This document shows, in pieces, positions 1 to 64,000 of a stretch of DNA of 64,000 bases. The stretch lies in the IMG/VR virus record IMGVR_UViG_3300042484_002041, positions 62,001 to 126,000 of that record; one strand, given 5' to 3'. A model generated the notes under the pieces. That model did no database searches and was not told the origin of the DNA. It saw nothing but the letters and a program-made list of their open reading frames with translations. Origin of the DNA: a virus. Positions within the stretch are counted from its first letter, which is position 1; each line of letters begins with the position of its first letter. A program made the position numbers and the translations under genes.

Positions 1-51
1 AATTTGCCAGTGGGTTCTCGGGTGAAAATTACATTTGAGGTGATTGAATGA
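1..51 (+). CDS. C-terminal end of an upstream gene (partial)
   Basis: The first frame is open from the window edge and reads sixteen residues (NLPVGSRVKITFEVIE) to a TGA. That TGA overlaps the ATG of the next gene as ATGA, the junction style used throughout this region. A GAGGTG Shine-Dalgarno for the next gene lies inside its last codons. Too little is present to say what the protein is. Confidence 0.5.
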   Translation, partial: NLPVGSRVKITFEVIE

Positions 52-296
52 ACGCACGAATCACAGCAATTATGCAAAAATGTTTTGACATCACGATTGA
101 TCAGCGCGGCCGCGAAGAATGCACCGCGGACTACGCCAACATCCAGATGTTTGTTCAACTGATCGGGTTGGAGTGTATCAAGGAAATTGAAACTGCCGCT
201 TATCACGATTCGTGTGAGGACTGGGAGTATGGTTATAACTCTGGGTTACGCAAAGCAAAAGAGTTGATTGTTAAACACTTTGAGGTGGAAGAATGA
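48..296 (+). CDS. Small protein, divergent member of the HFGVEE-tail family
   Basis: 82 residues, function unknown. The protein ends in ELIVKHFEVEE and has a central MFVQLIGLECI stretch, matching at low identity the KFAELIVRECV core and IKEHFGVEE tail of its downstream neighbours. GAGGTG lies about 6 nt before the ATG. The stop overlaps the next start (ATGA). Acidic, no membrane segment. The family assignment is a pattern match; nothing shows a biochemical role. Confidence 0.75.
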   Translation: MNARITAIMQKCFDITIDQRGREECTADYANIQMFVQLIGLECIKEIETAAYHDSCEDWEYGYNSGLRKAKELIVKHFEVEE

Positions 297-658
297 GTGC
301 GTGGAGTCATCTGCCTAACGCGGCACATATTGATCGTGTAATTGAATCCTCAAACTCATATCCTGAAGTTTGGAATGTGGCTTATGATTCGGCTTGGGAT
401 GCGGCTTGGGATGCGGCTTGGGATGCGGCTTATACTGCGGCTCGGGATGCGGCTCGGGATGCGGCTTATACTGCGGCTTGGGATGCGGCTCGGAATGCGG
501 TTTTGGCATTTATTGCATACGATGATGCTGCCAACTACCTGGCTATGCCTAGTGATCAATTGAAGGCCTGGGCTATACTGAGTGAAAACCCAGCGGCGAT
601 CTTATTGTTGCCTGTAGTAATCGCATATGAACGAATTAGTGAATGGGAGTTGGCATGA
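293..658 (+). CDS. Ala/Trp/Arg/Asp tetrapeptide-repeat protein
   Basis: 121 residues. Residues about 33-67 are an almost uninterrupted run of D-A-A-W, D-A-A-R and T-A-A-Y/W tetrapeptides, encoded by 12-bp DNA repeats. The spacing would put an aromatic or charged side chain on a regular helical face, so a long amphipathic helix is likely. The C-terminal third is ordinary globular sequence rich in Ala, Leu and Ile. It sits inside the small-gene array, translationally coupled on both sides. The repeat region may vary in length between related phages by slippage. Function unknown. Confidence 0.8.
   Translation: MSAWSHLPNAAHIDRVIESSNSYPEVWNVAYDSAWDAAWDAAWDAAYTAARDAARDAAYTAAWDAARNAVLAFIAYDDAANYLAMPSDQLKAWAILSENPAAILLLPVVIAYERISEWELA
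391..500 (+). repeat. 12-bp tandem direct repeat (gatgcggcttgg-type)
   Basis: About nine copies of a 12-bp unit, variants of gatgcggcttgg and tatactgcggct, in register with the reading frame of the surrounding gene. There are no spacers, so this is a coding minisatellite and not a CRISPR array. Confidence 0.9.
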
Positions 659-864
659 ACGAACGAATTGAACAACTTGCCGATGAGGCCGGTGCCGATA
701 TTTGGGGACACCAAGTAATGGCTAGTCGGCATTTTGATATAGAAAAGTTCGCCGAACTTATTGTTCGGGAATGTGTCGACTTGTTGCCAGCTGATATGAC
801 ACATGGCCCGGACAGTCGTCCGTTGTTGCAAGTATTCAAAGAACATTTCGGAGTTGCGGAATGA
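655..864 (+). CDS. Small HFGVEE-tail family protein
   Basis: 69 residues starting MNERIEQLADEAG. An upstream in-frame ATG at 643 exists, but the family N-terminus MNERI and the GGGAGT Shine-Dalgarno just before it favour 655. It carries the family core EKFAELIVRECVD and ends FKEHFGVAE. The start overlaps the previous stop and the stop overlaps the next start (ATGA). Predicted soluble and mainly helical. Function unknown. Confidence 0.85.
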   Translation: MNERIEQLADEAGADIWGHQVMASRHFDIEKFAELIVRECVDLLPADMTHGPDSRPLLQVFKEHFGVAE

Positions 865-1109
865 CCGAGAAGATTAAACTACTAGCCGAACAGGCTGGGT
901 TAGGTCAGGAACGATGGTCCACGACGGAACAGTTTAATTCTTTCCTAGACAAGTTCGGCGAACTGATTGTGGCAGAATGTGTAGGAATTATTGAATCTCA
1001 ACAAGTGCCAGTCGGTAACAGTCCGGCTGGCGAGATGGCGGCTGATTGGACAATAGCTGCGCTTAGTGAGTGTCGGACTGAAATAAAAGAACATTTCGGA
1101 GTCAAATGA
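861..1109 (+). CDS. Small HFGVEE-tail family protein
   Basis: 82 residues: MTEKIKLLAEQAG at the start, core DKFGELIVAECVG, tail IKEHFGVK. The GGAG in the previous gene's last codons serves as ribosome binding site. The final EE of the family tail is missing because the junction reads ggagtcaaatgatg instead of ggagttgaagaatg. Function unknown. Confidence 0.85.
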   Translation: MTEKIKLLAEQAGLGQERWSTTEQFNSFLDKFGELIVAECVGIIESQQVPVGNSPAGEMAADWTIAALSECRTEIKEHFGVK

Positions 1110-1252
1110 TGATTCGTGCGGCGGGTGATTATATCACCAACACCATAGCAACCCTGTTTATACTATGTGTTGTATTTGTACCACTAGGCATATGGAAACT
1201 TGCGGAAATAGCTATTTGGTGTTATAATCATATCAGTATCGGAATCAAGTGA
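1106..1252 (+). CDS. Short single-span membrane protein
   Basis: 48 residues beginning MMIRAAGDYI. Residues about 12-38 form one strongly hydrophobic segment (ATLFILCVVFVPLGIW), followed by a short tail. It starts at the ATGATG overlapping the previous stop, with GGAG five bases before, and ends TGATG into the next gene. The DNA of its last third also contains a possible promoter. Possibly an inner-membrane microprotein; function unknown. Confidence 0.6.
   Translation: MMIRAAGDYITNTIATLFILCVVFVPLGIWKLAEIAIWCYNHISIGIK
1200..1228 (+). promoter_or_regulatory. Possible internal sigma70 promoter
   Basis: TTGCGG, 17 bp, then TATAAT inside the short membrane-protein gene, about 24 bp before the next start. 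The -35 is poor, so this is only a candidate; the 17-bp spacing matches the better promoters elsewhere in the window. Confidence 0.35.
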
Positions 1253-1497
1253 TGAACGAACGAATTGAACAGTGTTTATACCTGTCAGGGCTAACTGCAC
1301 AGGGATGCTGGGACGAATTGGATGATTATGCTAAACAGGGTATATACAAGTTCGCCGAACTTATTGTTCGGGAATGTTTAGCACAATGTTTAGCACAGGT
1401 TGATAAAGTAGATGAGATGCTTGAGGATGACAGCGAGAAAGCAGGCGTGGCCTGGGTAGGATATGCAATTGAAAAACATTTCGGAGTTGAAGAATGA
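1252..1497 (+). CDS. Small HFGVEE-tail family protein
   Basis: 81 residues starting MNERIEQCLYLSG. A GTG three bases upstream is in frame, but the family pattern fixes the ATG. Core YKFAELIVRECLAQ, tail IEKHFGVEE. The core is followed by a short duplicated LAQC/LAQV stretch. Coupled to both neighbours. Function unknown. Confidence 0.85.
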   Translation: MNERIEQCLYLSGLTAQGCWDELDDYAKQGIYKFAELIVRECLAQCLAQVDKVDEMLEDDSEKAGVAWVGYAIEKHFGVEE

Positions 1498-1739
1498 TTG
1501 AAGATCGTATTATTGACGACAAGATTATGTTGAAAGATTTACTAGCACAGGCTGTGTGCCTTGGTGTCAAGGCCGGTCGTGAAGAACTTGATTACACTAG
1601 TCGTGGTGCTTGGCATATTGCCGAAGACATTCTGAACGAGACGGAAGAAATTCTAAGTCACCGTGAACGCATAATGGGCTTTAGAACTATAGCTGTTCAA
1701 ATGGTAGAAAAATTAAATCTTTTGGCAGATCAAGAATGA
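1494..1739 (+). CDS. Small helical protein of the array
   Basis: 81 residues (MIEDRIIDDKIML), mainly charged helical sequence with no recognisable motif; the family core and the HFGVEE tail are both absent. It is translated from the GGAG in the previous gene's tail and overlaps it by ATGA. It looks like an unrelated gene inserted between two family junctions. Confidence 0.7.
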   Translation: MIEDRIIDDKIMLKDLLAQAVCLGVKAGREELDYTSRGAWHIAEDILNETEEILSHRERIMGFRTIAVQMVEKLNLLADQE

Positions 1740-1894
1740 GAACAGCATATTCCAGTTTGAAGTCGGGCAGAAAACCTAGTAAGCCTCAGGGCTATCTGAG
1801 GGATCCTACTCCTGAAGAATGGAAGAAAACAATGGATGAATATTACAAACAACAGTCACAAAGTAGATACAACGGCAATAGGGGACGGTGGTGA
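1736..1894 (+). CDS. Small basic hypothetical protein
   Basis: 52 residues, MRTAYSSLKSGRKPSKPQGY at the start, with a Pro/Lys/Ser-rich N-terminus, a helical centre (TPEEWKKTMDEYYKQQ) and a Gly/Arg/Asn-rich end. Starts in the ATGA overlap with the preceding gene and ends overlapping the next start. Predicted disordered and positively charged, perhaps nucleic-acid binding, but no domain is recognised. Confidence 0.55.
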   Translation: MRTAYSSLKSGRKPSKPQGYLRDPTPEEWKKTMDEYYKQQSQSRYNGNRGRW

Positions 1895-2121
1895 ACGAAC
1901 GAATCAAACTCCCGGCTCAAGAATGGTTGGGATATGATCCAGAAAAAGGCGATCTTCATGGTTACACCGTTGAACAGATGCGAGAGTTCGCCGAGTTGAT
2001 TATTCAGGAATGTGTTGGAGTTGTGGAAGGTGGAAGGTTCCTACACACTCAGGCACCAACTGCTATCTTTGCTAAAGAGTGTAGTGATGCGATCAAACGA
2101 CATTTCGGAGTTTCAGAATGA
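1891..2121 (+). CDS. Small HFGVEE-tail family protein, GTG start
   Basis: 76 residues reading (M)NERIKLPAQEWLG, core REFAELIIQECVG, tail IKRHFGVSE. The start is GTG, placed by alignment with the MNERI of its paralogues and by AGGGGA six bases upstream; a further in-frame GTG lies one codon before. Function unknown. Confidence 0.8.
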   Translation: MNERIKLPAQEWLGYDPEKGDLHGYTVEQMREFAELIIQECVGVVEGGRFLHTQAPTAIFAKECSDAIKRHFGVSE

Positions 2122-2288
2122 ACGAAAAATATATGGATTTACAACAAAAAGTGGTTTATGCAGTGCTAGAAATGCAGAAAGGCTCACCATTAACAGATTT
2201 CCTGACAGATAGCGAAATTGAAGAAGCACTAAGTATGTTCGCAGATGTGTTAATTTCTTTAGGTATTCAACTCAAAGGCGAAGAATGA
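2118..2288 (+). CDS. Small hypothetical protein
   Basis: 56 residues, MNEKYMDLQQKVVYAVLEMQ at the start, then a short acidic helical region ending LKGEE. It keeps the MNE start but not the family core, so it may be a strongly diverged or shortened member. Coupled on both sides by ATGA overlaps, with GGAG from the preceding gene's tail. Confidence 0.6.
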   Translation: MNEKYMDLQQKVVYAVLEMQKGSPLTDFLTDSEIEEALSMFADVLISLGIQLKGEE

Positions 2289-2542
2289 ACGACAGAATTC
2301 GTGAACTATACCAACAAGCCCATAGCATACGTCATTATGACGGTGATCCTATGCGTGAGGGTAATCCTCCTACTGTTTATTGGCAAGGTGAAAAGAGTGC
2401 TGAAAAGTTCGCCGAGCTGATTGTGCGGGAATGTGCCAATCATTGTGACCTACTGCTGGATCATAAGATTAGTTCAGAATGGTCAAGAGGAACACACGAT
2501 TGTTCCAGAGCGATTAAGAAACATTTCGGAGTTGAAGAATGA
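2285..2542 (+). CDS. Small HFGVEE-tail family protein
   Basis: 85 residues: MNDRIRELYQQAH, core EKFAELIVRECANH, tail IKKHFGVEE. Between core and tail lies a variable region with two Cys and two His. Near-identical in DNA to its neighbours in the core and tail only, so the segments between evolve separately. Function unknown. Confidence 0.85.
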   Translation: MNDRIRELYQQAHSIRHYDGDPMREGNPPTVYWQGEKSAEKFAELIVRECANHCDLLLDHKISSEWSRGTHDCSRAIKKHFGVEE

Positions 2543-2787
2543 ACGAACGAATTAAAGAACTTGTTCAACATGCTGTCTTAGCCGTTGATATTGTCACGGG
2601 AAATGAAGCACTAGATGATGAACTGGCTAAGATGTATATTCCTGATTGCTTTGCCGAAAAGTTCGCCGAGTTGATTGTGCGGGAATGCTTGAATCAATGC
2701 TATAATCGTGGTATGAACGATGAATTGTATGCTGGGCAACTCAATGCCGCATGGTATATTGAACAACATTTCGGAGTTGAAGAATGA
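2539..2787 (+). CDS. Small HFGVEE-tail family protein
   Basis: 82 residues: MNERIKELVQHAV, core EKFAELIVRECLNQC, tail IEQHFGVEE. The first 30 and last 20 bases are practically identical to those of the flanking genes. Function unknown. Confidence 0.85.
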   Translation: MNERIKELVQHAVLAVDIVTGNEALDDELAKMYIPDCFAEKFAELIVRECLNQCYNRGMNDELYAGQLNAAWYIEQHFGVEE

Positions 2788-3041
2788 ACGAACGAATTCA
2801 ACAACTTGCACTTGAGGCATTTGATCCGATAAACGCATTGGCATCTGAAGGTGTGGCAGATCGCCACACCTTTGACCAAGCATGGTTCCAACTGTATAAC
2901 AAAAAGTTCGCCGAACTGATTGTTCAGGAATGTGGGACTGTAATCAATAGTGAAAATTATCGAGAACATTCTAAAGGTTGGAATAGCGCTATTGAATGGT
3001 CATTCGGTATGATTAAAGAACATTTCGGAGTTGAAGAATGA
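2784..3041 (+). CDS. Small HFGVEE-tail family protein
   Basis: 85 residues: MNERIQQLALEAF, core KKFAELIVQECGTV, tail IKEHFGVEE. Third of three consecutive near-tandem copies. Function unknown. Confidence 0.85.
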   Translation: MNERIQQLALEAFDPINALASEGVADRHTFDQAWFQLYNKKFAELIVQECGTVINSENYREHSKGWNSAIEWSFGMIKEHFGVEE

Positions 3042-3355
3042 TAACAATTAATCTTGAAGAAATTCCACAAGGTGTATTGGATGACATCGCTGATTGTGTT
3101 GAAGTAGTTACCTTTGAAAATTATATGAAACCGGTAACTGCTGAATGTGAACTCAGACGATCAAACTATCGTAGGTTCGTTGCCAACAATGTTGAAGGCT
3201 GGGCGTTAGATAGTAAAACTTTTGAATCTAAATTAATTACGGGAACTAAAATGGAATGTTATCTTGTTCGGGGTATTTTTACTGCCGATACCGCAGATAT
3301 CTATTCTGTCCTATCTGCTGGAATTGGGGTATCAAATTTCGGAGTTGAAGAATGA
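3038..3355 (+). CDS. Hypothetical protein with grafted FGVEE tail
   Basis: 105 residues. The body (MITINLEEIPQGVLDDIADC onward) shows no similarity to the paralogue family and looks like a small alpha/beta protein, yet it ends VSNFGVEE from the same junction DNA. This suggests recombination at the junction that joined a different gene body to the shared tail. Function unknown. Confidence 0.75.
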   Translation: MITINLEEIPQGVLDDIADCVEVVTFENYMKPVTAECELRRSNYRRFVANNVEGWALDSKTFESKLITGTKMECYLVRGIFTADTADIYSVLSAGIGVSNFGVEE

Positions 3356-3555
3356 AACCCTATGCAGAAATCAAAGTGTTAGATGTTTATCAGAATCCTG
3401 TGACAGGATCAGAGTGGGCAGTGGTGGAGAAATCTGATTCTGAAAAGATGGTGCAACTCACCATGATTGGCAGCAACAATGATAAGCAGTATACAATGTG
3501 GAAGCGAAACACTGATAGAATTTTTAATTTTCCACAAGTGCAATACGGAAACTAG
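3352..3555 (+). CDS. Small hypothetical protein
   Basis: 67 residues, MKPYAEIKVLDVYQNPVTGS, with alternating hydrophobic residues that suggest a small beta-sheet protein. Translated from the GGAG of the preceding FGVEE junction. No motif recognised. Confidence 0.7.
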   Translation: MKPYAEIKVLDVYQNPVTGSEWAVVEKSDSEKMVQLTMIGSNNDKQYTMWKRNTDRIFNFPQVQYGN

Positions 3556-3939
3556 ATGACGAGTTCAGAAATCAAAGGCTTCTTCTACTTTGGTAACGTA
3601 CGGTGGCTGCCATATAGGCTGAGCATCAAAGATAAACTTTGGTGGAGATTCGTGCCCGGAGTTGTGATCAATGTAAAGTGGCCCAGTGGTAAGATTGTAG
3701 CAGGACCGGGGCCAGGCGATCCATTCTGGTGTGATTTGGGTGGAGCAAACTATATAACTTTTGATTCGGCGGACCCGAATGACCACTATCGCCCGGAACT
3801 TACTAAACTTGTTGGCAAACAAGGAATCCATTGGAACTGGGGTATGTCCGATAGGGATGTTACTGATAATCGTGTAACCATAAAGATCATAAAAAGCAAA
3901 GCAAAATACGCTTCATACTTTGCCATTAAATGGAATTGA
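3556..3939 (+). CDS. Hypothetical protein, Trp-rich
   Basis: 127 residues with eight Trp and many Gly/Pro (VAGPGPGDPFWCDLGG), soluble, no recognised domain. It begins directly after the preceding stop with GGAAAC before it. A strong promoter follows its end, so it probably closes this transcription unit. Confidence 0.7.
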   Translation: MTSSEIKGFFYFGNVRWLPYRLSIKDKLWWRFVPGVVINVKWPSGKIVAGPGPGDPFWCDLGGANYITFDSADPNDHYRPELTKLVGKQGIHWNWGMSDRDVTDNRVTIKIIKSKAKYASYFAIKWN

Positions 3940-3960
3940 ATGATGAGCGGGCGATTTCGA

Positions 3961-3989
3961 TTGACAATAAATCGCACCTGTGCTATAAT
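3961..3989 (+). promoter_or_regulatory. Sigma70-type promoter with extended -10
   Basis: Consensus TTGACA, 17 bp, TATAAT preceded by TGC. The downstream gene starts about 25 bp after the -10 with a GGAG ribosome site. This is the best match to the host housekeeping consensus in the window and suggests early transcription. Confidence 0.85.
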
Positions 3990-4013
3990 AGCAGCTATAC
4001 AATGGAGTTGATG

Positions 4014-4253
4014 ATGATTGATACTGAACAGATTTATTCACAGTGTGTGTACGATGTTGACAACAGGTATGTTACCCTGCGTTTGAAAAATTGTGGAGTT
4101 AGTCAAAGTGGTTCGTTTTGGCTCATAATGTCCGACACGTCCAACGACACTAAATTGGATCAAGAAATCTCAATCTTCTTGACTCCGGGTGATTTAAGAG
4201 AAGTCATTGCTAGTTTGACAGAGGCGTTAGAGAAAAATGAAAGAAGAAATTAA
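4014..4253 (+). CDS. Small hypothetical protein, first gene behind a strong promoter
   Basis: 79 residues (MIDTEQIYSQCVYDVDNRYV). The ATG at 4014 has GGAG six bases upstream; an ATG one codon earlier is possible, and a longer frame from 3930 would begin before the promoter. Acidic, probably a beta-rich fold. No motif recognised. Confidence 0.7.
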   Translation: MIDTEQIYSQCVYDVDNRYVTLRLKNCGVSQSGSFWLIMSDTSNDTKLDQEISIFLTPGDLREVIASLTEALEKNERRN

Positions 4254-4440
4254 ACTAATGTGGTCTGATCCACGCTTTCAAGTCTTGATCAATGTGCTAC
4301 ATCTCCTTGAGGGAGATAGAATTTGGGGCGGTATGGATTGGGTGTATCATCCTATTCCTTCTTTTAAGTATCTGCCCGTCAGGGACCAGGTTCGCCAAGC
4401 ATTGGATGCTGTTAAAGCAGAGTACGGAGTAGTAGAATGA
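4237..4440 (+). CDS. Small hypothetical protein ending YGVVE
   Basis: 67 residues (MKEEIKLMWSDPRF). The end AEYGVVE and the junction tacggagtagtagaatg are a weak version of the FGVEE junction. Overlaps the previous gene by 17 bases in another frame. Function unknown. Confidence 0.65.
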   Translation: MKEEIKLMWSDPRFQVLINVLHLLEGDRIWGGMDWVYHPIPSFKYLPVRDQVRQALDAVKAEYGVVE

Positions 4441-4709
4441 ACAACCAAAGACTCAAAGCCTTGCTTGAGGAAGTTGGATTTGTTGGGTATCGCAATGCCG
4501 CTGGATTTGTTAACGTCCCGGTCCCTGCTTTTATTAGTCAGATGGATCGATTCGCTGAACTGATTATTCAGGAATGTGCAAGAGTTGCGGTTGCAACACC
4601 CTGTCCAATCACAGATGAAGTCAGCCTGCAGTCTCAGGGACACACCTGGGACATGGCCACTATCGAAGCCGCCAGATCCATCAGACAACATTTTAAGGAT
4701 CAGCAATGA
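4437..4709 (+). CDS. Small HFGVEE-tail family protein, degenerate tail
   Basis: 90 residues: MNNQRLKALLEEVGF, core DRFAELIIQECARVA, tail SIRQHFKDQQ in place of HFGVEE. The tail change coincides with a following gene of a different type. Function unknown. Confidence 0.8.
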   Translation: MNNQRLKALLEEVGFVGYRNAAGFVNVPVPAFISQMDRFAELIIQECARVAVATPCPITDEVSLQSQGHTWDMATIEAARSIRQHFKDQQ

Positions 4710-4945
4710 AATATACACTGTTTCTCTTGTTAGGATTCCTAATAGGATGTGGGCCATATGCAAAAGAAACACGCTGGCCTGTCATGCCCGATGGCCTGCA
4801 AGATTGTAAAATCTATAATCTATCTGATGGTAATGGTCATGCGATCACAGTTGCTCGTTGCCCGCTGTCAGCTACAACAGTGAAGAATTCAAATAAAATT
4901 CCCGCCACATCTATCACCATTGACCGCACAGAGGCAGCAAAATGA
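4706..4945 (+). CDS. Small predicted lipoprotein
   Basis: 79 residues. The N-terminus MKYTLFLLLGFLIGCG has one Lys, a hydrophobic stretch and a lipobox (LIGC, Cys15), so export and lipid attachment are predicted. The mature part is about 65 residues with two further Cys. Phage lipoproteins of this size sometimes act in lysis (Rz1-like) or superinfection exclusion; neither role can be assigned here, and no holin or endolysin is adjacent. Confidence 0.65.
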   Translation: MKYTLFLLLGFLIGCGPYAKETRWPVMPDGLQDCKIYNLSDGNGHAITVARCPLSATTVKNSNKIPATSITIDRTEAAK

Positions 4946-5196
4946 TGAACAAACGAATTCGACAACTTGCCAACCAGTCTGGATTCAGTACTGAATTGTC
5001 AGAAGCAATGACCACACGTCATAATACAGCATCGGGACTTGAAAAGTTTGCCGAACAAATCGTTCTGGAATGCTGCCAGATGATGGTTGACTTGGAACGC
5101 AAGTATCCAGTCAACCTCACTGTGCGAGAGATTAAACAGCATTTTGGTATTACTGTTAAACAACATGCCGCCGCTGAGTGGCCAAAGGAACTATAA
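4945..5196 (+). CDS. Small HFGVEE-tail family protein, extended end
   Basis: 83 residues from the second ATG of an ATGATG (MNKRIRQLANQSG). Core EKFAEQIVLECCQ; the tail reads IKQHFGITVKQHAAAEWPKE, so the usual end is replaced by an extra segment. Overlaps the previous stop by one base. Function unknown. Confidence 0.8.
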   Translation: MNKRIRQLANQSGFSTELSEAMTTRHNTASGLEKFAEQIVLECCQMMVDLERKYPVNLTVREIKQHFGITVKQHAAAEWPKEL

Positions 5197-10611: not shown

Positions 10612-11607
10612 GTGAAGAAATTATTTGCAGTTTTGCTAGCAGCAGTGTCGATCGGATCAACCGCACAAGAAATTACAGGGGCAGGTGCAACATTCCCCGC
10701 ACCCATCTATGCCAAATGGGCAGCAGATTATAACAAAGCAACTGGTGCTAAGATAAACTACCAAAGTGTAGGATCTGGGGCAGGCATCAAACAAATTGAA
10801 GCCAAGACCGTAACATTTGGCGCAAGTGATATGCCGCTTACTGACGAAAAGTTAAAAGAAGCAGGCCTGTTTCAATTTCCCACAGTGATCGGCGGTGTTG
10901 TTCCGGTGGTCAACATCAAGGGCATTAAGCCGGGTGAACTAAAGTTAACTGGCCCACTGTTGGGCGACATCTACCTGGGCAAAGTTACCAAGTGGGATGA
11001 CCCTGCAATCAAACAACTGAACCCCACAGTGGCACTACCCAGTGATGCTATCATGGTGGTGCGGCGTGCTGACGGTAGTGGTACTACATTTATCTGGACC
11101 AACTACCTGAGCAAAGTGAGCCCCGAGTTCAAAGACAAAGTAGGAGAAGGCACCGCTGTTAATTGGCCCGTTGGCGCCGGCGGCAAAGGCAATGAGGGAG
11201 TTTCTGCATTTGTTTCTAGACTGCCCAACAGCATTGGCTATGTTGAATACGCATATGTCAAGCAGAACAAAATGACCTACGTTCAAGTACAAAACAGTGC
11301 AGGTACTTGGGTTACTCCCAGCGACACTGCATTCAAGGCCGCTGCTGCAGGTGCTACCTGGAGCAAGACATACTTTCAGGTGCTGACCAATCAAGCAGGC
11401 AAAGAATCTTGGCCCATCAGTGGTGCTACATTTATCCTGGTACACTTAAAACCACTCAAGCCAGAAGAGGTCAAGACAGCCCTGAAGTTCTTTGACTGGG
11501 CTTATACATCAGGTGATAAAGCAGCAGATGACCTAGACTATGTTGCACTGCCAGATTCTGTGAAGAATCAGGTTCGTGCTGATTGGAAGCGGTTAGGATT
11601 GAATTAA
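10612..11607 (+). CDS. pstS: Periplasmic phosphate-binding protein PstS
   Basis: 331 residues, full family length. A signal peptide ([18 protein letters not shown], cleavage likely before QE) directs it to the periplasm, where it binds phosphate for the host PstCAB transporter. Ligand-site motifs are all present: GAGATFPAP (22-31), VGSGAG near 58, GASDMPL near 70 and RRADGSGTT near 147. The GTG start has AAAGGAG nine bases before it. Overall wording strongly resembles Burkholderiales PstS, suggesting acquisition from such a host. No pstC, pstA or pstB is nearby, so it must rely on the host transporter. Regulated by the Pho box upstream. Confidence 0.95.
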
Positions 11608-11669
11608 AACAAACAAACCGGGCACACGATTGACTGCCGATGGAACTCGTAACCATCACTTTTCTACAA

Positions 11670-11677
11670 CTAAATAT
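11670..11677 (+). promoter_or_regulatory. Late-promoter-like motif CTAAATAT
   Basis: CTAAATAT 22 bp before the transporter gene, with TAAGGAG between motif and ATG. The arrangement fits a T4-type late promoter with a short leader. Confidence 0.5.
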
Positions 11678-11699
11678 TCCTTTAAAATAAGGAGTTCCC

Positions 11700-12314
11700 A
11701 TGTTAAATCGATTGTTTCCCGGGCTTGATCGCTCATTGGCACTGAGGTTAGTGGCCTTCCACACATTCATTATTGCTCTGAGCAATTGGCTTGTGACTTA
11801 TAAATTTACTATCTTTGACCACACCTTGGCTTATGCTGCGTTTACTTTCCCACTGGTGGTTATTGCCACCGACCTTACTGTTCGCCTGATCGGTAAGGAA
11901 ATGGGACAGGCTGTGGTAAGACTCAGCTTTATCCCTGCCATTATTGTCAGCATCTCGGTAGTGGCAGCAGGTGGTGCACCAGAAAGTGTTGCCATCCGAA
12001 TCGGTCTGGGTAGTGGTATGGCCTACCTGGTTGCTACTATGCTAGACGTGTATGTGTTCCAGTACCTGCGCGAGCGATATGAGGCATGGTATGTGGCTCC
12101 TGCACTTAGCAGCGTGGTAACCACCATCATTGACACGTATACATTCTTTGGCACAGCGTTTGCTGGTGGTGCAGACAAGTTCATGGCAGACAACTGGCAT
12201 ATTGTGGCCACAAATCACATTGTGACTAAGATTGTGGTCAGCCTGCTGGTGATCCTGCCAGCGTATGGCATTTTACTAAACTTTTTACAAAAGCGGATAG
12301 CCGCTAAACTCTAA
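11700..12314 (+). CDS. yhhQ: YhhQ-family queuosine/7-deazaguanine precursor transporter
   Basis: 204 residues with about six hydrophobic spans (first near 17-33, last near 175-195). The conserved pieces LSNWLVTYKFTIFDHTLAY, FPLVVIATDLTVRLIGKEMG and WYVAPALSSVVTTIIDTYTF match the YhhQ/QPTR family of inner-membrane transporters for preQ0 and preQ1. In bacteria these feed queuosine synthesis in tRNA; in phages with 7-deazaguanine DNA they supply the modified base. No DpdA-type transglycosylase or Que enzyme is in this window. Preceded by TAAGGAG and a late-type motif. Confidence 0.85.
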   Translation: MLNRLFPGLDRSLALRLVAFHTFIIALSNWLVTYKFTIFDHTLAYAAFTFPLVVIATDLTVRLIGKEMGQAVVRLSFIPAIIVSISVVAAGGAPESVAIRIGLGSGMAYLVATMLDVYVFQYLRERYEAWYVAPALSSVVTTIIDTYTFFGTAFAGGADKFMADNWHIVATNHIVTKIVVSLLVILPAYGILLNFLQKRIAAKL

Positions 12315-12344: not shown

Positions 12345-12632
12345 ATGATCCACAACGTACTGGTCGGTCAAGCCTGCACAACCAAATCCGTTGGCGGCAC
12401 TCTGCACAGGTACCGGGATATCAAGGTGACTCAACTGATCGTGGGCAACCGTGCCGTTTTAGTCGTTGGTATCGGTTGCCCAAACGAGCTCATCAATTGT
12501 ATTGGCGCACACATCAAAATGGCTGACATTCCGTGGTATATGTGGTTGATAGGGGTTGCTAATGTCAGCACTTGGGTGTATACTCTAGTAGTAGCGTGTA
12601 AAGATAGTAGTTATCGGGACAACGCTGAATAA
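12345..12632 (+). CDS. Hypothetical protein with C-terminal hydrophobic segment
   Basis: 95 residues (MIHNVLVGQACTTKSVGGTL onward). Residues about 66-86 (WYMWLIGVANVSTWVYTLVV) could span the membrane once. It is preferred over an overlapping frame at 12317-12526 because that product is an Arg/Trp/His-rich, shadow-like sequence. The ribosome site is weak (GGTTCTGG). Function unknown. Confidence 0.5.
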   Translation: MIHNVLVGQACTTKSVGGTLHRYRDIKVTQLIVGNRAVLVVGIGCPNELINCIGAHIKMADIPWYMWLIGVANVSTWVYTLVVACKDSSYRDNAE

Positions 12633-12635
12633 ATA
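12628..12635 (+). promoter_or_regulatory. Late-promoter-like motif AATAAATA before the tmRNA
   Basis: AATAAATA fits the NATAAATA late box reported for T4-like cyanophages. A start about seven bases later, near 12642, would give an acceptor piece of about 64 nt, a sensible size for a two-piece tmRNA. Confidence 0.5.
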
Positions 12636-12894
12636 AAAAGATTGTTGTAATTCCTCTGGATAGAAGGCATGTTGGACGGCGGATCATTCCCGCCCGGGTC
12701 CACCATAAAACATATTCCCATCGTGGAATCTGTGAAACCTAGATAGTATATAAGGCGGTTCCTGCAAGCCTTGAACTGAAAATGCTAGGTAAGGAGTATG
12801 TTTTATAATGGGCCCGAAGTGGTTTCGACAGCGTGAGATATTGAAGGCGGCAACACGGTAGGCGATGACCGTTAATCAAGCAAAACTCATAAAT

Positions 12895-12927
12895 GCAAAT
12901 GATAGCGTTTATTCTTTAGCAGCCTAA
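12895..12927 (+). other. tmRNA proteolysis-tag reading frame
   Basis: Ten codons GCA to GCC plus TAA read ANDSVYSLAA. The AND start and LAA end are the conserved SspB/ClpX-type parts; the middle SVYS differs from the common proteobacterial tags, so a tag distinguishable from the host's is possible. Confidence 0.88.
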
Positions 12928-12969
12928 ACACTGCTTGGGGCGGCTGTGCCTCGCAACAGAAAATAGCAG

Positions 12970-12995
12970 AGAGGCTCTTCGGGGCCTCTTTTTTT
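12970..12995 (+). terminator. Intrinsic terminator of the tmRNA
   Basis: An 8-bp stem AGAGGCTC/GGGCCTCT closed by a TTCG tetraloop and followed by seven T. It is the clearest factor-independent terminator in the window and separates the tmRNA from the next gene. Confidence 0.92.
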
Positions 12996-13011
12996 AACTC
13001 TTAGGAAACTT

Positions 13012-14163
13012 ATGCAATTGTTCCAGCAGCCGTCTGATCGGTATGGCTATTACACTGTGGGCAACGAGAAAATTTACAGCAAATTTGAAGCTGTCAAGCG
13101 ACACCAAAGTACCGGGCAATTCCCGCATTGGTACTTTCATGATGATGTGTTTGCCAGTTACGATTGGACACATGAACCCGAAGCGTCTCTCACTGACTTA
13201 TATCTTGCAAGGGCTCAACAACTACGAGAAAAATACGACTACGTTGTTATCTGCTTTAGTGGTGGTGCGGATAGTACCAACATGCTGCATGCGTTCTTAG
13301 ATAACGGTATACATGTAGATGAAGTTGTCACATGGCACACGTTCGAAGGCAATCATAACAGTAGCACTCACACTGATCAAGAAATAGCACAAGTAACGTT
13401 ACCGTACATGCAAAAGTTACAAGACGCCCATCCAGAAATCAAGTTTAGGGTCATTGATATGACTCGCCCTATATACGATTTCTTTCAAGATACAGACAAC
13501 ATTGATGACACAATAAATCAGTTGGCCCTGCCTAGTCCCAACAGCATGGCATGGACTAGGCCGTTTATGCTAGATAGATTCTATCTAGATTATATCCACA
13601 GCGGTAAAAAAATTGGGTTTGTCTTAGGCATGGAAAAACCACGGGTATGGCAAGTGGATGGCCGCTGGTGTGTTAGATTCTTAGATGTCAGCAATATTTT
13701 TTACATCGGGTCTAGTGCACCAACTGAAATGTTTTATTGGAGCCCAGAGCTGCCTCCCATGCTGATCAAGCAAGCGCATATAATCAAGCGGTATCTTGAA
13801 CATGCTACTGCTCAAACACCCTGGGTGCAGCACGAGTCTTCGGGACTGGCCTGTGTTGATCGTAATGGTCAAACATTATGGCTGCATCGTGACGGAGTTT
13901 CGTCTTTGATTTATCCAACGTGGGACCTTAGCACATTCCAAGTTGAAAAAACGCGAAGTCCGGTATTCATACCCAATACCACTTGGTTGTATGATAACGA
14001 AATAGATACTACTGCCAAACACTACCGCAATGGTATTCTACATTTTCGAGACTCGATTCCTGAGTATTGGAGAAATGATACCGATGATATCTTTCGTGGT
14101 ATTCGTGGTACTTGGAGTCGCCCTTACTACCTTGACAAACAAGTAGTCGATGCTCGGGCATGA
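13012..14163 (+). CDS. PP-loop ATP pyrophosphatase-like protein
   Basis: 383 residues. Residues 77-90 (YVVICFSGGADSTN) contain the SGGxDS loop of the adenine-nucleotide alpha-hydrolase superfamily (asparagine synthetase C-domain, QueC, N-acetyl-sugar amidotransferases, tRNA thiolases), which adenylate a substrate before adding N or S. A long C-terminal part has no recognised domain. AGGAAA lies six bases before the ATG. The neighbour is a B12-type radical SAM enzyme, so the pair may act on one small molecule. An amidotransferase acting on a sugar is one guess; the substrate is not visible. Confidence 0.75.
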   Translation: MQLFQQPSDRYGYYTVGNEKIYSKFEAVKRHQSTGQFPHWYFHDDVFASYDWTHEPEASLTDLYLARAQQLREKYDYVVICFSGGADSTNMLHAFLDNGIHVDEVVTWHTFEGNHNSSTHTDQEIAQVTLPYMQKLQDAHPEIKFRVIDMTRPIYDFFQDTDNIDDTINQLALPSPNSMAWTRPFMLDRFYLDYIHSGKKIGFVLGMEKPRVWQVDGRWCVRFLDVSNIFYIGSSAPTEMFYWSPELPPMLIKQAHIIKRYLEHATAQTPWVQHESSGLACVDRNGQTLWLHRDGVSSLIYPTWDLSTFQVEKTRSPVFIPNTTWLYDNEIDTTAKHYRNGILHFRDSIPEYWRNDTDDIFRGIRGTWSRPYYLDKQVVDARA

Positions 14164-61408: not shown

Positions 61409-64000
61409 TTAATTACCACGGATAAACCTAGCTGCCAAAGTATTTGTATCTTGTAGGCTAATCCCGTCACTTGGGGTACTAATGCCCGGGTGATACCAGC
61501 TTAGGCCTTGCCGAATTCGAATACTTACTTGATAACCTGCTGCAGGCGCTGTTGTAAACGCAATTGCAACCGGGGAATCGGTAATTATAATGTACCCGCC
61601 CATTTGTTTAATCCCGCCCACATACACCTCGACTGCTTCAACTAGTTCAGTGCTGTCGAGACTAGAAATTGAGATCTCAGTTGCAGTGAATACAGTTTCT
61701 GTACCATCCCCCAGGAAGTTTTGCGCAATTATTCTATCTTGGTATTCTACTGGTAACAAATTACCAATACCAATGTCATATACCGCCGAACCAACCGCAT
61801 GATCGGCTGCTGCTGTACCGGCAGTTCCACGACGTAACCCACTGAGTGTGTTGGTTATAAGGTCCCGGGTACGGTATGTAATCCTCTCGCCATTGATTGT
61901 AATCAAGCCAAATAATCCTGCAGTTAGATTAGGTTCAGACAGTTGGCCCGCATCATCAACATAGATTACCGCGTCGTCGCTATTCAATACAGACACAAGT
62001 TGTGTAGTAGTACTGGTTGTGATTCTGTAAGTGCTTTGTTGTCCGCGCATGTCTTGAAATATACGGAAAGCAATACCACCAGGCAATACGCTTTGGGTAA
62101 AGCTAGTAATAGCCACCACCTCATTAACAGCAATTGGAGGCCCAGAGATTACGATAGCAGTCCCATCAACTACATAATTTAAACCTTCGTATAAGTAAAG
62201 TCCATCTAAGGATACCATGATACGATTAGGATTAGATATAATACGTCCAGTATCAAATCTATTGGTTTGAATAATTGTACCTTGGCTGTAATCGTATGAC
62301 CCGGGATCACCTGTTATTGCGCCTGCGTCGTACAGAGTTGAGTCATATGATTCAGATACTAAAGTGCCAATTGTTTCTGGACCCACAAACACCTGTGTTA
62401 AAATGTTTTGTTGTGCTGTGTCATTCCAGGTGGTTACTGAAACAACATCGTTCACAATAGGTATAAACCCGCTTCCAGATTTAAATGTTAACACGTTGCC
62501 AACAATAGTATAAACAGATGCAGTGCTTACAGTGATTACAACTTCTGTTCCGATAAGAGGGAGTTCGGCTAGAACAACAGTTCTCGGGTCTCCGGTATAC
62601 GGTGTTACTGTAAACTGTGATCCCAGGGTCAATCGAACGTTATTTACAAACACCGAAACCTCGTTGTCTGCGATTAAAGCCTGACTATACCCACCACGGA
62701 CAGGCAAGTAATATTCAAGACTTGATCCATCTCCAATATATTCTACGCCCTCGACTGGCCGAGCACGAACCCCATTTTTCTCAACAATCACATTGGCCGG
62801 ATTTGTCCCGCCTAAGTAGTTGGTTAAAGTATATACAAGTTCACCTGCACTAACAAAGTACTCAGTTACTGGTAGACTCCAGCTATATGTTGTTGGGAGT
62901 TCTGATCCTAGTATTGTAACCACAACATCGTCAGTACTGGTCCAGGCGGCATCAAACACAATTTCAGTGTCTGAAATGTTGATTGTGTTATAGGTGTAAT
63001 CAGTAACAAATATTCCATTCACAAACACCACAACTTCTGAGATGAGACTGTATGCAACAGGAACTACAACAGTGTCGCCAATGTCTGCACCATTGTAACG
63101 ATTACGGTAGAATTGATTTCCTCCGCCTAATTCGTACACATCAATTAATAAAGTATTACCTGTAACAACGCCCGAATTAACGGTCACTGTTTGATTAACC
63201 CAATCAATTACATAATCAACTGATGGCACTAACTCGTTACCCACGGTCTTGTTAAACAGTCGAATTGCGCTTGGGAATTCGAGCAAATCAGCAAAACTAT
63301 AGCTGGTCCCGGCTAAAGTGAATTGATAACCAATCGAGATTAACGGGAATCCATGACCGTCACTTTGCCAGTCGGCGCCCGGTGTAGTATATACTCGCAG
63401 ATCTAATGTGTCAAATATTGCTCCGGGCACCAGTTCTTCTGGTGCATGACTTGAGTATGTGTCAACAAACGCACCACCATCCACATCAATTGCAGACGGG
63501 CCTACACCCAGGTACGGATCGACAAAGTTGCTTTCGTAGATAGCGTCTAGAATTGCCGGATCATAGGTTGGCAGTCCCTCTGGTCCGTATGCAATATTAT
63601 CATATGGGTTAATGTCGAAGTTTCCAACATCGAAACCAGTATCTTGGTCAAAGTCCGGACCATACACTTGTACACCTGGATAATCAACACCAGAAATTAA
63701 CAGAGCAAGATCAAGACCGGGCTCATTAGGAGTTGCAACATAGTAGCCCATGGTACGGTCAACACCGTTGAGATCACCGGCAGGGACAACGGTCCATTGC
63801 TGTGGATCAAAAGTTTCGCTTTGTACACCAGTACTGTCATCGCTAGTGGCTTCCCACACACGGTTGATATAACGTACTAGCGTGCCGTTGTCGTAGTTTT
63901 CATTAGGTACCCACTCTTGCACATCAGTTTGATACTGGTAACGGTCGTACTTGATGGTGGTTTTAATATTACGCACCAATGCGTTAGACAGGTTAGCATA
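61409..64000 (-). CDS. Large virion structural protein (5' end outside the window)
   Basis: At least 863 residues with no in-frame stop up to the window edge, so the true start lies beyond. Contains DVQEWVPNENYDNGTLVRYI and WEATSDDSTGVQ, then repeated beta-sandwich units of the form VxVFVNG/VxVYVGG-x-Y-x(6)-DTEIVF (near 315, 440, 590, 790), which suggests a string of Ig-like or fibre domains. Very rich in Val, Thr, Gly and Asp. A baseplate or tail-fibre role is likely. Confidence 0.72.
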   Translation of the reverse strand, partial: YANLSNALVRNIKTTIKYDRYQYQTDVQEWVPNENYDNGTLVRYINRVWEATSDDSTGVQSETFDPQQWTVVPAGDLNGVDRTMGYYVATPNEPGLDLALLISGVDYPGVQVYGPDFDQDTGFDVGNFDINPYDNIAYGPEGLPTYDPAILDAIYESNFVDPYLGVGPSAIDVDGGAFVDTYSSHAPEELVPGAIFDTLDLRVYTTPGADWQSDGHGFPLISIGYQFTLAGTSYSFADLLEFPSAIRLFNKTVGNELVPSVDYVIDWVNQTVTVNSGVVTGNTLLIDVYELGGGNQFYRNRYNGADIGDTVVVPVAYSLISEVVVFVNGIFVTDYTYNTINISDTEIVFDAAWTSTDDVVVTILGSELPTTYSWSLPVTEYFVSAGELVYTLTNYLGGTNPANVIVEKNGVRARPVEGVEYIGDGSSLEYYLPVRGGYSQALIADNEVSVFVNNVRLTLGSQFTVTPYTGDPRTVVLAELPLIGTEVVITVSTASVYTIVGNVLTFKSGSGFIPIVNDVVSVTTWNDTAQQNILTQVFVGPETIGTLVSESYDSTLYDAGAITGDPGSYDYSQGTIIQTNRFDTGRIISNPNRIMVSLDGLYLYEGLNYVVDGTAIVISGPPIAVNEVVAITSFTQSVLPGGIAFRIFQDMRGQQSTYRITTSTTTQLVSVLNSDDAVIYVDDAGQLSEPNLTAGLFGLITINGERITYRTRDLITNTLSGLRRGTAGTAAADHAVGSAVYDIGIGNLLPVEYQDRIIAQNFLGDGTETVFTATEISISSLDSTELVEAVEVYVGGIKQMGGYIIITDSPVAIAFTTAPAAGYQVSIRIRQGLSWYHPGISTPSDGISLQDTNTLAARFIRGN

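Follow-up and report, generated by a model that had tools for sequence, protein, structure and literature searches.

In a survey of 18,146 phage genomes, tmRNA was found in 2.3 %, and 53 of the 133 unique tmRNA structures were two-piece, mostly aquatic (PMC9004378). One of the phages carrying a permuted tmRNA is Melnitz, in which a glutamine riboswitch is predicted in the 3′ domain of ssrA (PMC9004378). In a second study, which lists 79 phage sequences, a tRNA-Ala is reported to lie inside the spacer of a permuted tmRNA, in one nominally archaeal assembly (PMC11915505). A different group of small RNAs, from prophages, includes PasD, which is related to STnc100 but has different seeds and targets (Zhu et al., 2026; PMC13192938).

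The stretch investigated here (64,000 nucleotides, the window) comprises positions 62001–126000 of the record IMGVR_UViG_3300042484_002041 (167,584 bp, assembled environmental DNA). At 12643–12992 of the window there is an intact permuted tmRNA gene of the betaproteobacterial type, matched by RF01850 (beta_tmRNA) at 12592–12992 across the entire model (145.1 bits, E 2e-44, cut-off 84) and by RF04321 (tmRNA_permuted) at 12643–12927 (134.1 bits, cut-off 47). ARAGORN also calls a permuted tmRNA, at 12613–13018, with the tag ANDSVYSLAA, and calls no further tRNA or tmRNA genes in the window. The first-pass annotation had proposed, from the letters alone, a phage-borne permuted two-piece tmRNA with this tag, an acceptor strand, a CCA and a UUCG terminator; the covariance searches and ARAGORN support the gene and its tag, the remaining parts can all be located in the sequence, and the gene sits in a virus record of 167.6 kb. 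Its rarity had been overstated, given the permuted tmRNAs of Melnitz and others and the survey frequencies above. The parts of the gene are as follows.

12643–12705 (5′ end approximate), plus strand: tmRNA acceptor piece, with P2 strand, T-arm, 3′ acceptor strand and CCA (Rfam, ARAGORN, sequence)
12706–12809, plus strand: intervening segment of 104 nt, which maturation would be expected to remove, holding the nested RNA module (Rfam alignment, fold z -3.29)
12810–12967, plus strand: tmRNA coding piece, with GGGCCCG acceptor strand, D-loop region, P2 strand, tag frame and 3′ region (ARAGORN, Rfam)
12895–12927, plus strand: tag reading frame ANDSVYSLAA, with stop (ARAGORN, comparison of phage tags)
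12968–12991, plus strand: intrinsic terminator with UUCG loop (sequence)

The gene order is that of permuted tmRNAs, with the acceptor piece and its CCA followed by the spacer and then the coding piece. The acceptor strand CGGGUCC-A-CCA, with the encoded CCA at 12703–12705, ends at 12705, and its CGGGUCC forms a 7 bp acceptor stem with the GGGCCCG that begins the coding piece at 12810; G3-U70, the alanine identity pair, is present in this stem. The tag frame (GCA AAT GAT AGC GTT TAT TCT TTA GCA GCC TAA) is short, with a hydrophobic degron end and a stop. Related phage tmRNAs carry the tags ANDELFMIAA, ANDEQFALAA, and ANDESFRIAA, therefore the middle of the tag varies among phages. Gene order, tRNA-like domain, G3-U70, CCA, tag frame, and carriage by a phage are all common to the window and to the permuted tmRNAs described by RF01850 and RF04321 and known from phage Melnitz, and by itself the tmRNA of the window is a further member of this already known class.

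No SmpB (PF01668) was detected across the 167.6 kb record, in a search whose control was positive in 10 of 14 genomes; any ribosome rescue would therefore need the SmpB of the host, which is the presumed partner of this tmRNA. T4-type capsid and Terminase_6 families were likewise not found in the record, the capsid result being uninformative for want of a positive control. A late-type promoter, which had been suggested at the start of the gene, is rejected: AATAAATA is seen once in the window where 3.8 occurrences are expected by chance, and TATAAATA once where 3.0 are expected. Both counts lie below chance expectation, so a late promoter is not supported by these motifs.

It is in the spacer that the window differs from the described cases. 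This segment is 104 nt long, compared with approximately 22–29 nt in the model consensus, and 0 of 200 shuffles fold as well as it does. The initial description of a folded spacer was therefore right about the folding (z -3.3) but missed that the segment is no mere spacer, since a separately conserved RNA module lies within it. The glutamine riboswitch of Melnitz is absent: there is no glnA match in 12690–12830 (cmscan to E 10) or in 12500–13100 (Rfam), and a glutamine riboswitch or another Rfam family in the spacer is rejected on the lack of any Rfam match. Neither ARAGORN nor Rfam finds a nested tRNA in 12706–12809. The window thus resembles the tRNA-Ala case in having a separate RNA gene within the spacer, but here it is a non-tRNA module, and the spacers of several phage tmRNAs contain it. 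The module and its core match no Rfam family, and the open-access literature, searched with exact sequence strings included, nowhere describes it. The module of the window has these parts.

12702–12718, plus strand: 5′ strand of the helix P1, which closes the module, paired with 12793–12809 (pairing in 8 type I copies)
12719–12736, plus strand: conserved unpaired strand CATCGTGGAMTCTGTGnn of type I (alignment A1)
12734–12795, plus strand: core module P3 (blastn E 1e-8 to 5e-7 in phages; CMs R1 and R2)
12793–12809, plus strand: 3′ strand of P1 (pairing in 8 type I copies)

When all copies are aligned, two architectures with one common core, GTNTATAAGNCGGTNNCTGCAAGNCTTGNACT, are seen. In type I, which includes the window copy, the long closing helix P1 is followed by the strand CATCGTGGAMTCTGTG and then by the core hairpin P3, and the scaffold arms P2 and P4 described below are absent. 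P1 has 17–22 pairs in 8 of 8 complete type I copies, a length reached by 0 of 2000 shuffles in each case, and in the window it continues into the acceptor stem of the tmRNA (22 pairs over 24 positions). The P1 helices lie at the same junction offset across the type I copies while their sequences differ, with 15 of 17 pairs changed on both sides. Over the whole type I alignment 97.4 % of cells are paired, and two-sided changes are found in 19 of 34 pairs, compared with 10.6 in shuffles (0 of 500 as many). The unpaired strand is invariant in alignment A1 except for the M and the last positions, and pattern scans, including one with the pattern CATCGTGG, met it solely together with the core. The core comprises an outer stem (12737–12742 with 12785–12790), a conserved internal loop, and an inner hairpin (12751–12756 with 12768–12773) with the loop GGTNNCTGCAA. 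A simple antisense role of this loop against a fixed target was considered and judged unlikely because two of the loop bases vary.

BLAST and pattern scans place the module in approximately 30 phage records. Used as a blastn query against phage genomes, the tmRNA gene returned no tmRNAs, but 43–46 nt of the spacer were matched at 91 % identity in Acinetobacter phage BS46, Cronobacter phage ENT47670, and Klebsiella and Shigella phages, at unannotated intergenic sites. Pattern scans of IMG/VR gave 17 and then 26 stretches; L032, one of the 26, is a chance match, and the matches L032–L035 and L058–L060, which have no flanking stems, were treated as chance. Type I copies lie in permuted-tmRNA spacers in the window and in the stretches L008, L010, L016, and L061 (the tmRNA being verified with Rfam for L010 and L016), directly 3′ of the CCA of a tRNA-Thr in L020, and between the tRNAs of large arrays in L025–L031. 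With the core CM R1, 18 phage records each give a single copy. Outside phages, 84,980 bacterial and archaeal genomes were scanned twice by pattern and yielded no genuine copy of the core, and core-only searches of plasmids and E. coli found nothing.

The phage of L020 also carries a tmRNA, which lacks the module, and the module is placed elsewhere in that phage; the module is therefore independent of the tmRNA. In that permuted tmRNA (L020, 2554–2613, minus strand) the spacer holds another insert, which contains a T-arm-like hairpin and is closed by a P1-type helix; tmRNA spacers thus seem to offer one more site at which modules dock. In two of the tRNA arrays, approximately 100 nt immediately upstream of the module (1825–1930 in L025, and the corresponding part of L030) are alike by eye and may represent another structured RNA, although the two were not connected by local blastn.

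In the Klebsiella, Cronobacter, Shigella, and Acinetobacter phages the core is carried by a cloverleaf-like RNA (type II/III), in which P1 encloses an arm P2, the core as central arm, and an arm P4 lying directly on P1. The P2 loop is complementary to the P4 loop (GTCGA/TCGAC, GCTGA/TCAGC, GCGA/TCGC, and ACTGA/TCAGT), and because the two change together they probably kiss, in the manner of a tRNA elbow; this predicted kissing helix can be paired in every row of the type II alignment. The pair counts of that alignment give 99.3 % paired, and two-sided changes occur in 10 of 42 pairs, compared with 3.3 in shuffles (0 of 500 as many). ARAGORN calls no tRNA among the type II RNAs, and they are not regarded as classical tRNAs. 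The CM R2, trained on type II/III copies alone, detects the window copy (E 2.6e-13), and as no type I copies went into R2, the relationship between the two types is independent of the window sequence. The existence of an RNA family rests on this independent detection and on the covariation, which supports the fold, the kissing loops of the cloverleaf form included.

The scaffold of P1, P2, and P4 is more widespread than the core. Blast searches with the BS46 and L024 copies and a P1-like copy located it in more than 140 Acinetobacter phage records, in Pseudomonas phage ZC08 (within a tRNA array), in phages P1 and P7, and, at least partially (mostly the 5′ half), in 1,112 of 5,426 complete E. 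coli genomes. R1 has no match in ZC08, and in E. coli the core-only search is negative yet the scaffold is often present, carrying other modules. The Acinetobacter scaffolds are nearly letter-identical but hold ten distinct central modules, the mean identity of which (0.51) is close to that of shuffled sequences (0.49); scaffolds with entirely differing central modules are seen in L037, L038, L039, and L041–L050. By comparison of sequences, central modules are thus shown to be exchanged on a common scaffold. In phage P1 (NC_005856, 69500–70200; L070), type-II-like RNAs lie directly after trnA/trnT, where the sole annotation is that of the antisense ORFs plp and upl. An array of type-II-like RNAs with differing central modules is also found in L054, a P1-like plasmid (880–1714), and in P1-like elements such an array is placed behind tRNA-Asn/tRNA-Thr.

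One described RNA shares the plan of this scaffold. A type-II-like copy of L054 is matched by the STnc100 model with 42 bits (E 3.8e-8), just under the cut-off of 47, and the two have in common the order GGUGAAU-P2-variable-P4-CACC. STnc100 and, through Zhu et al. (2026), PasD appear to be already described RNAs related to the scaffold: the type II form and these sRNAs share the GGUGAAU closing helix, P2, a changing centre, and P4 on the closing helix, as well as the prophage setting (PMC13192938). The type I copy of the window is unlike STnc100 in having neither P2 nor P4, and the STnc100 model (RF02076) matches neither the window spacer nor the core.

The tRNA cluster of phage T4 contains two stable RNAs, rnaC and rnaD, whose function is unknown. 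The module resembles these in being a structured phage RNA, associated with tRNA clusters, to which no function has been assigned, but R1 finds nothing in T4 (NC_000866), so no homology to rnaC or rnaD is detected with this model.

The window is best explained as a functional-looking phage permuted tmRNA that uses the SmpB of its host and has an independent, trans-acting RNA gene nested in its spacer, a reading that is considered probable, if not secure. It has to be set against a role in cis, in which the long P1 would fold the permuted precursor and guide its cleavage, the module having no independent life. The collinearity of P1 with the tmRNA acceptor stem would fit such a role, as would the position of all type I copies beside or within tRNA-type genes or clusters; moreover, in the phage of the window the module is known from the tmRNA spacer alone. 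Yet the module stands by itself in BS46 and in the enterobacterial phages, where the stretches examined contain neither a tRNA nor a tmRNA gene, and the tmRNA of L020 has a different spacer. Since consensus spacers have only approximately 22–29 nt, permuted tmRNAs do not need such an element, and a role in cis is regarded as unlikely. A spread as small mobile or selfish DNA that prefers tRNA-like genes, with conservation reflecting recent spread and not RNA function, would account for the scattered occurrence of the module, in phages and at sites that are unrelated, and for the single copy per phage. The compensatory changes seen in the variable helices contradict this and, with an invariant loop on top of a changing stem, indicate selection on RNA; in addition, the P1 helices on either side have unrelated sequences, and neither common ends nor target duplications were seen. 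Such a spread is very improbable.

The resemblance to STnc100 raises the question of whether these are base-pairing sRNAs, with the scaffold as carrier and the central module as seed for host or phage mRNAs. The near-threshold match of the P1-like plasmid copy and its common plan, the differing seeds and targets of PasD and STnc100, and the completely different central modules on near-identical Acinetobacter scaffolds all speak for this. The module of the window, on the other hand, is highly structured and nearly invariant across beta- and gammaproteobacterial-type phages, which a seed would not be expected to be, and the P2 and P4 arms are missing from type I copies; this function is possible, but not favoured for the module. 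As for the tmRNA, it might act against the system of the host, as a decoy or by redirected tagging, and not in ribosome rescue; an action of this kind has been proposed for the TLD-only tmRNA of DS6A. A phage with no detectable SmpB would compete for that of the host, and DS6A-type molecules inhibit tmRNA (PMC4131195). Unlike in DS6A, all parts are intact here, including a normal tag ending in LAA, as would be expected for tagging, and action against the host is accordingly thought improbable.

If the favoured reading of a functional tmRNA with a nested trans-acting gene is correct, tRNA-processing enzymes of the host would cut the precursor, RNase P before G12810 and 3′ processing after the CCA at 12705. 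These cuts would mature both tmRNA pieces and would release the module, 104 nt long and closed by a hairpin, to act in trans as a stable RNA. Its conserved loop and internal loop may be the surface that binds a host factor found in both beta- and gammaproteobacteria; this factor could be a protein, the ribosome or an RNA, possibly one of defence or RNA decay. Phages would shuttle the module as a cassette between tRNA-like or hairpin scaffolds. More tentatively, a previously undescribed class of trans-acting phage RNAs is proposed, in which interchangeable modules might serve during infection as decoys or inhibitors of host factors (e.g. defence or RNA-decay enzymes) and would sit on tRNA-like scaffolds with kissing arms, within tRNA arrays or in the permuted-tmRNA spacer. 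Near-identical scaffolds with unrelated central modules are the pattern expected from an arms race or from swappable targeting. The nested gene in the spacer of one phage tmRNA points to a large and mostly unannotated phage RNA family, with copies in phage P1 and, at least partial, in approximately one-fifth of complete E. coli genomes, and permuted-tmRNA spacers and phage tRNA clusters are suggested as places to look for hidden RNA genes.

Some other features of the window are recorded here. Directly upstream of the tmRNA (10612–12314) are a phosphate-binding PstS and a transporter of the Vut_1 family (vitamin or queuosine-precursor type). At 48–5196 there are approximately ten paralogous small proteins of about 80 aa, which have in common KFAELIVREC and a C-terminal HFGVEE, and an ORF at 293–658 contains DAAW/DAAY repeat units. 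A large cluster on the minus strand, at approximately 27000–60600, encodes several radical-SAM proteins and a Nol-like carbamoyltransferase, which is unusual for a phage.
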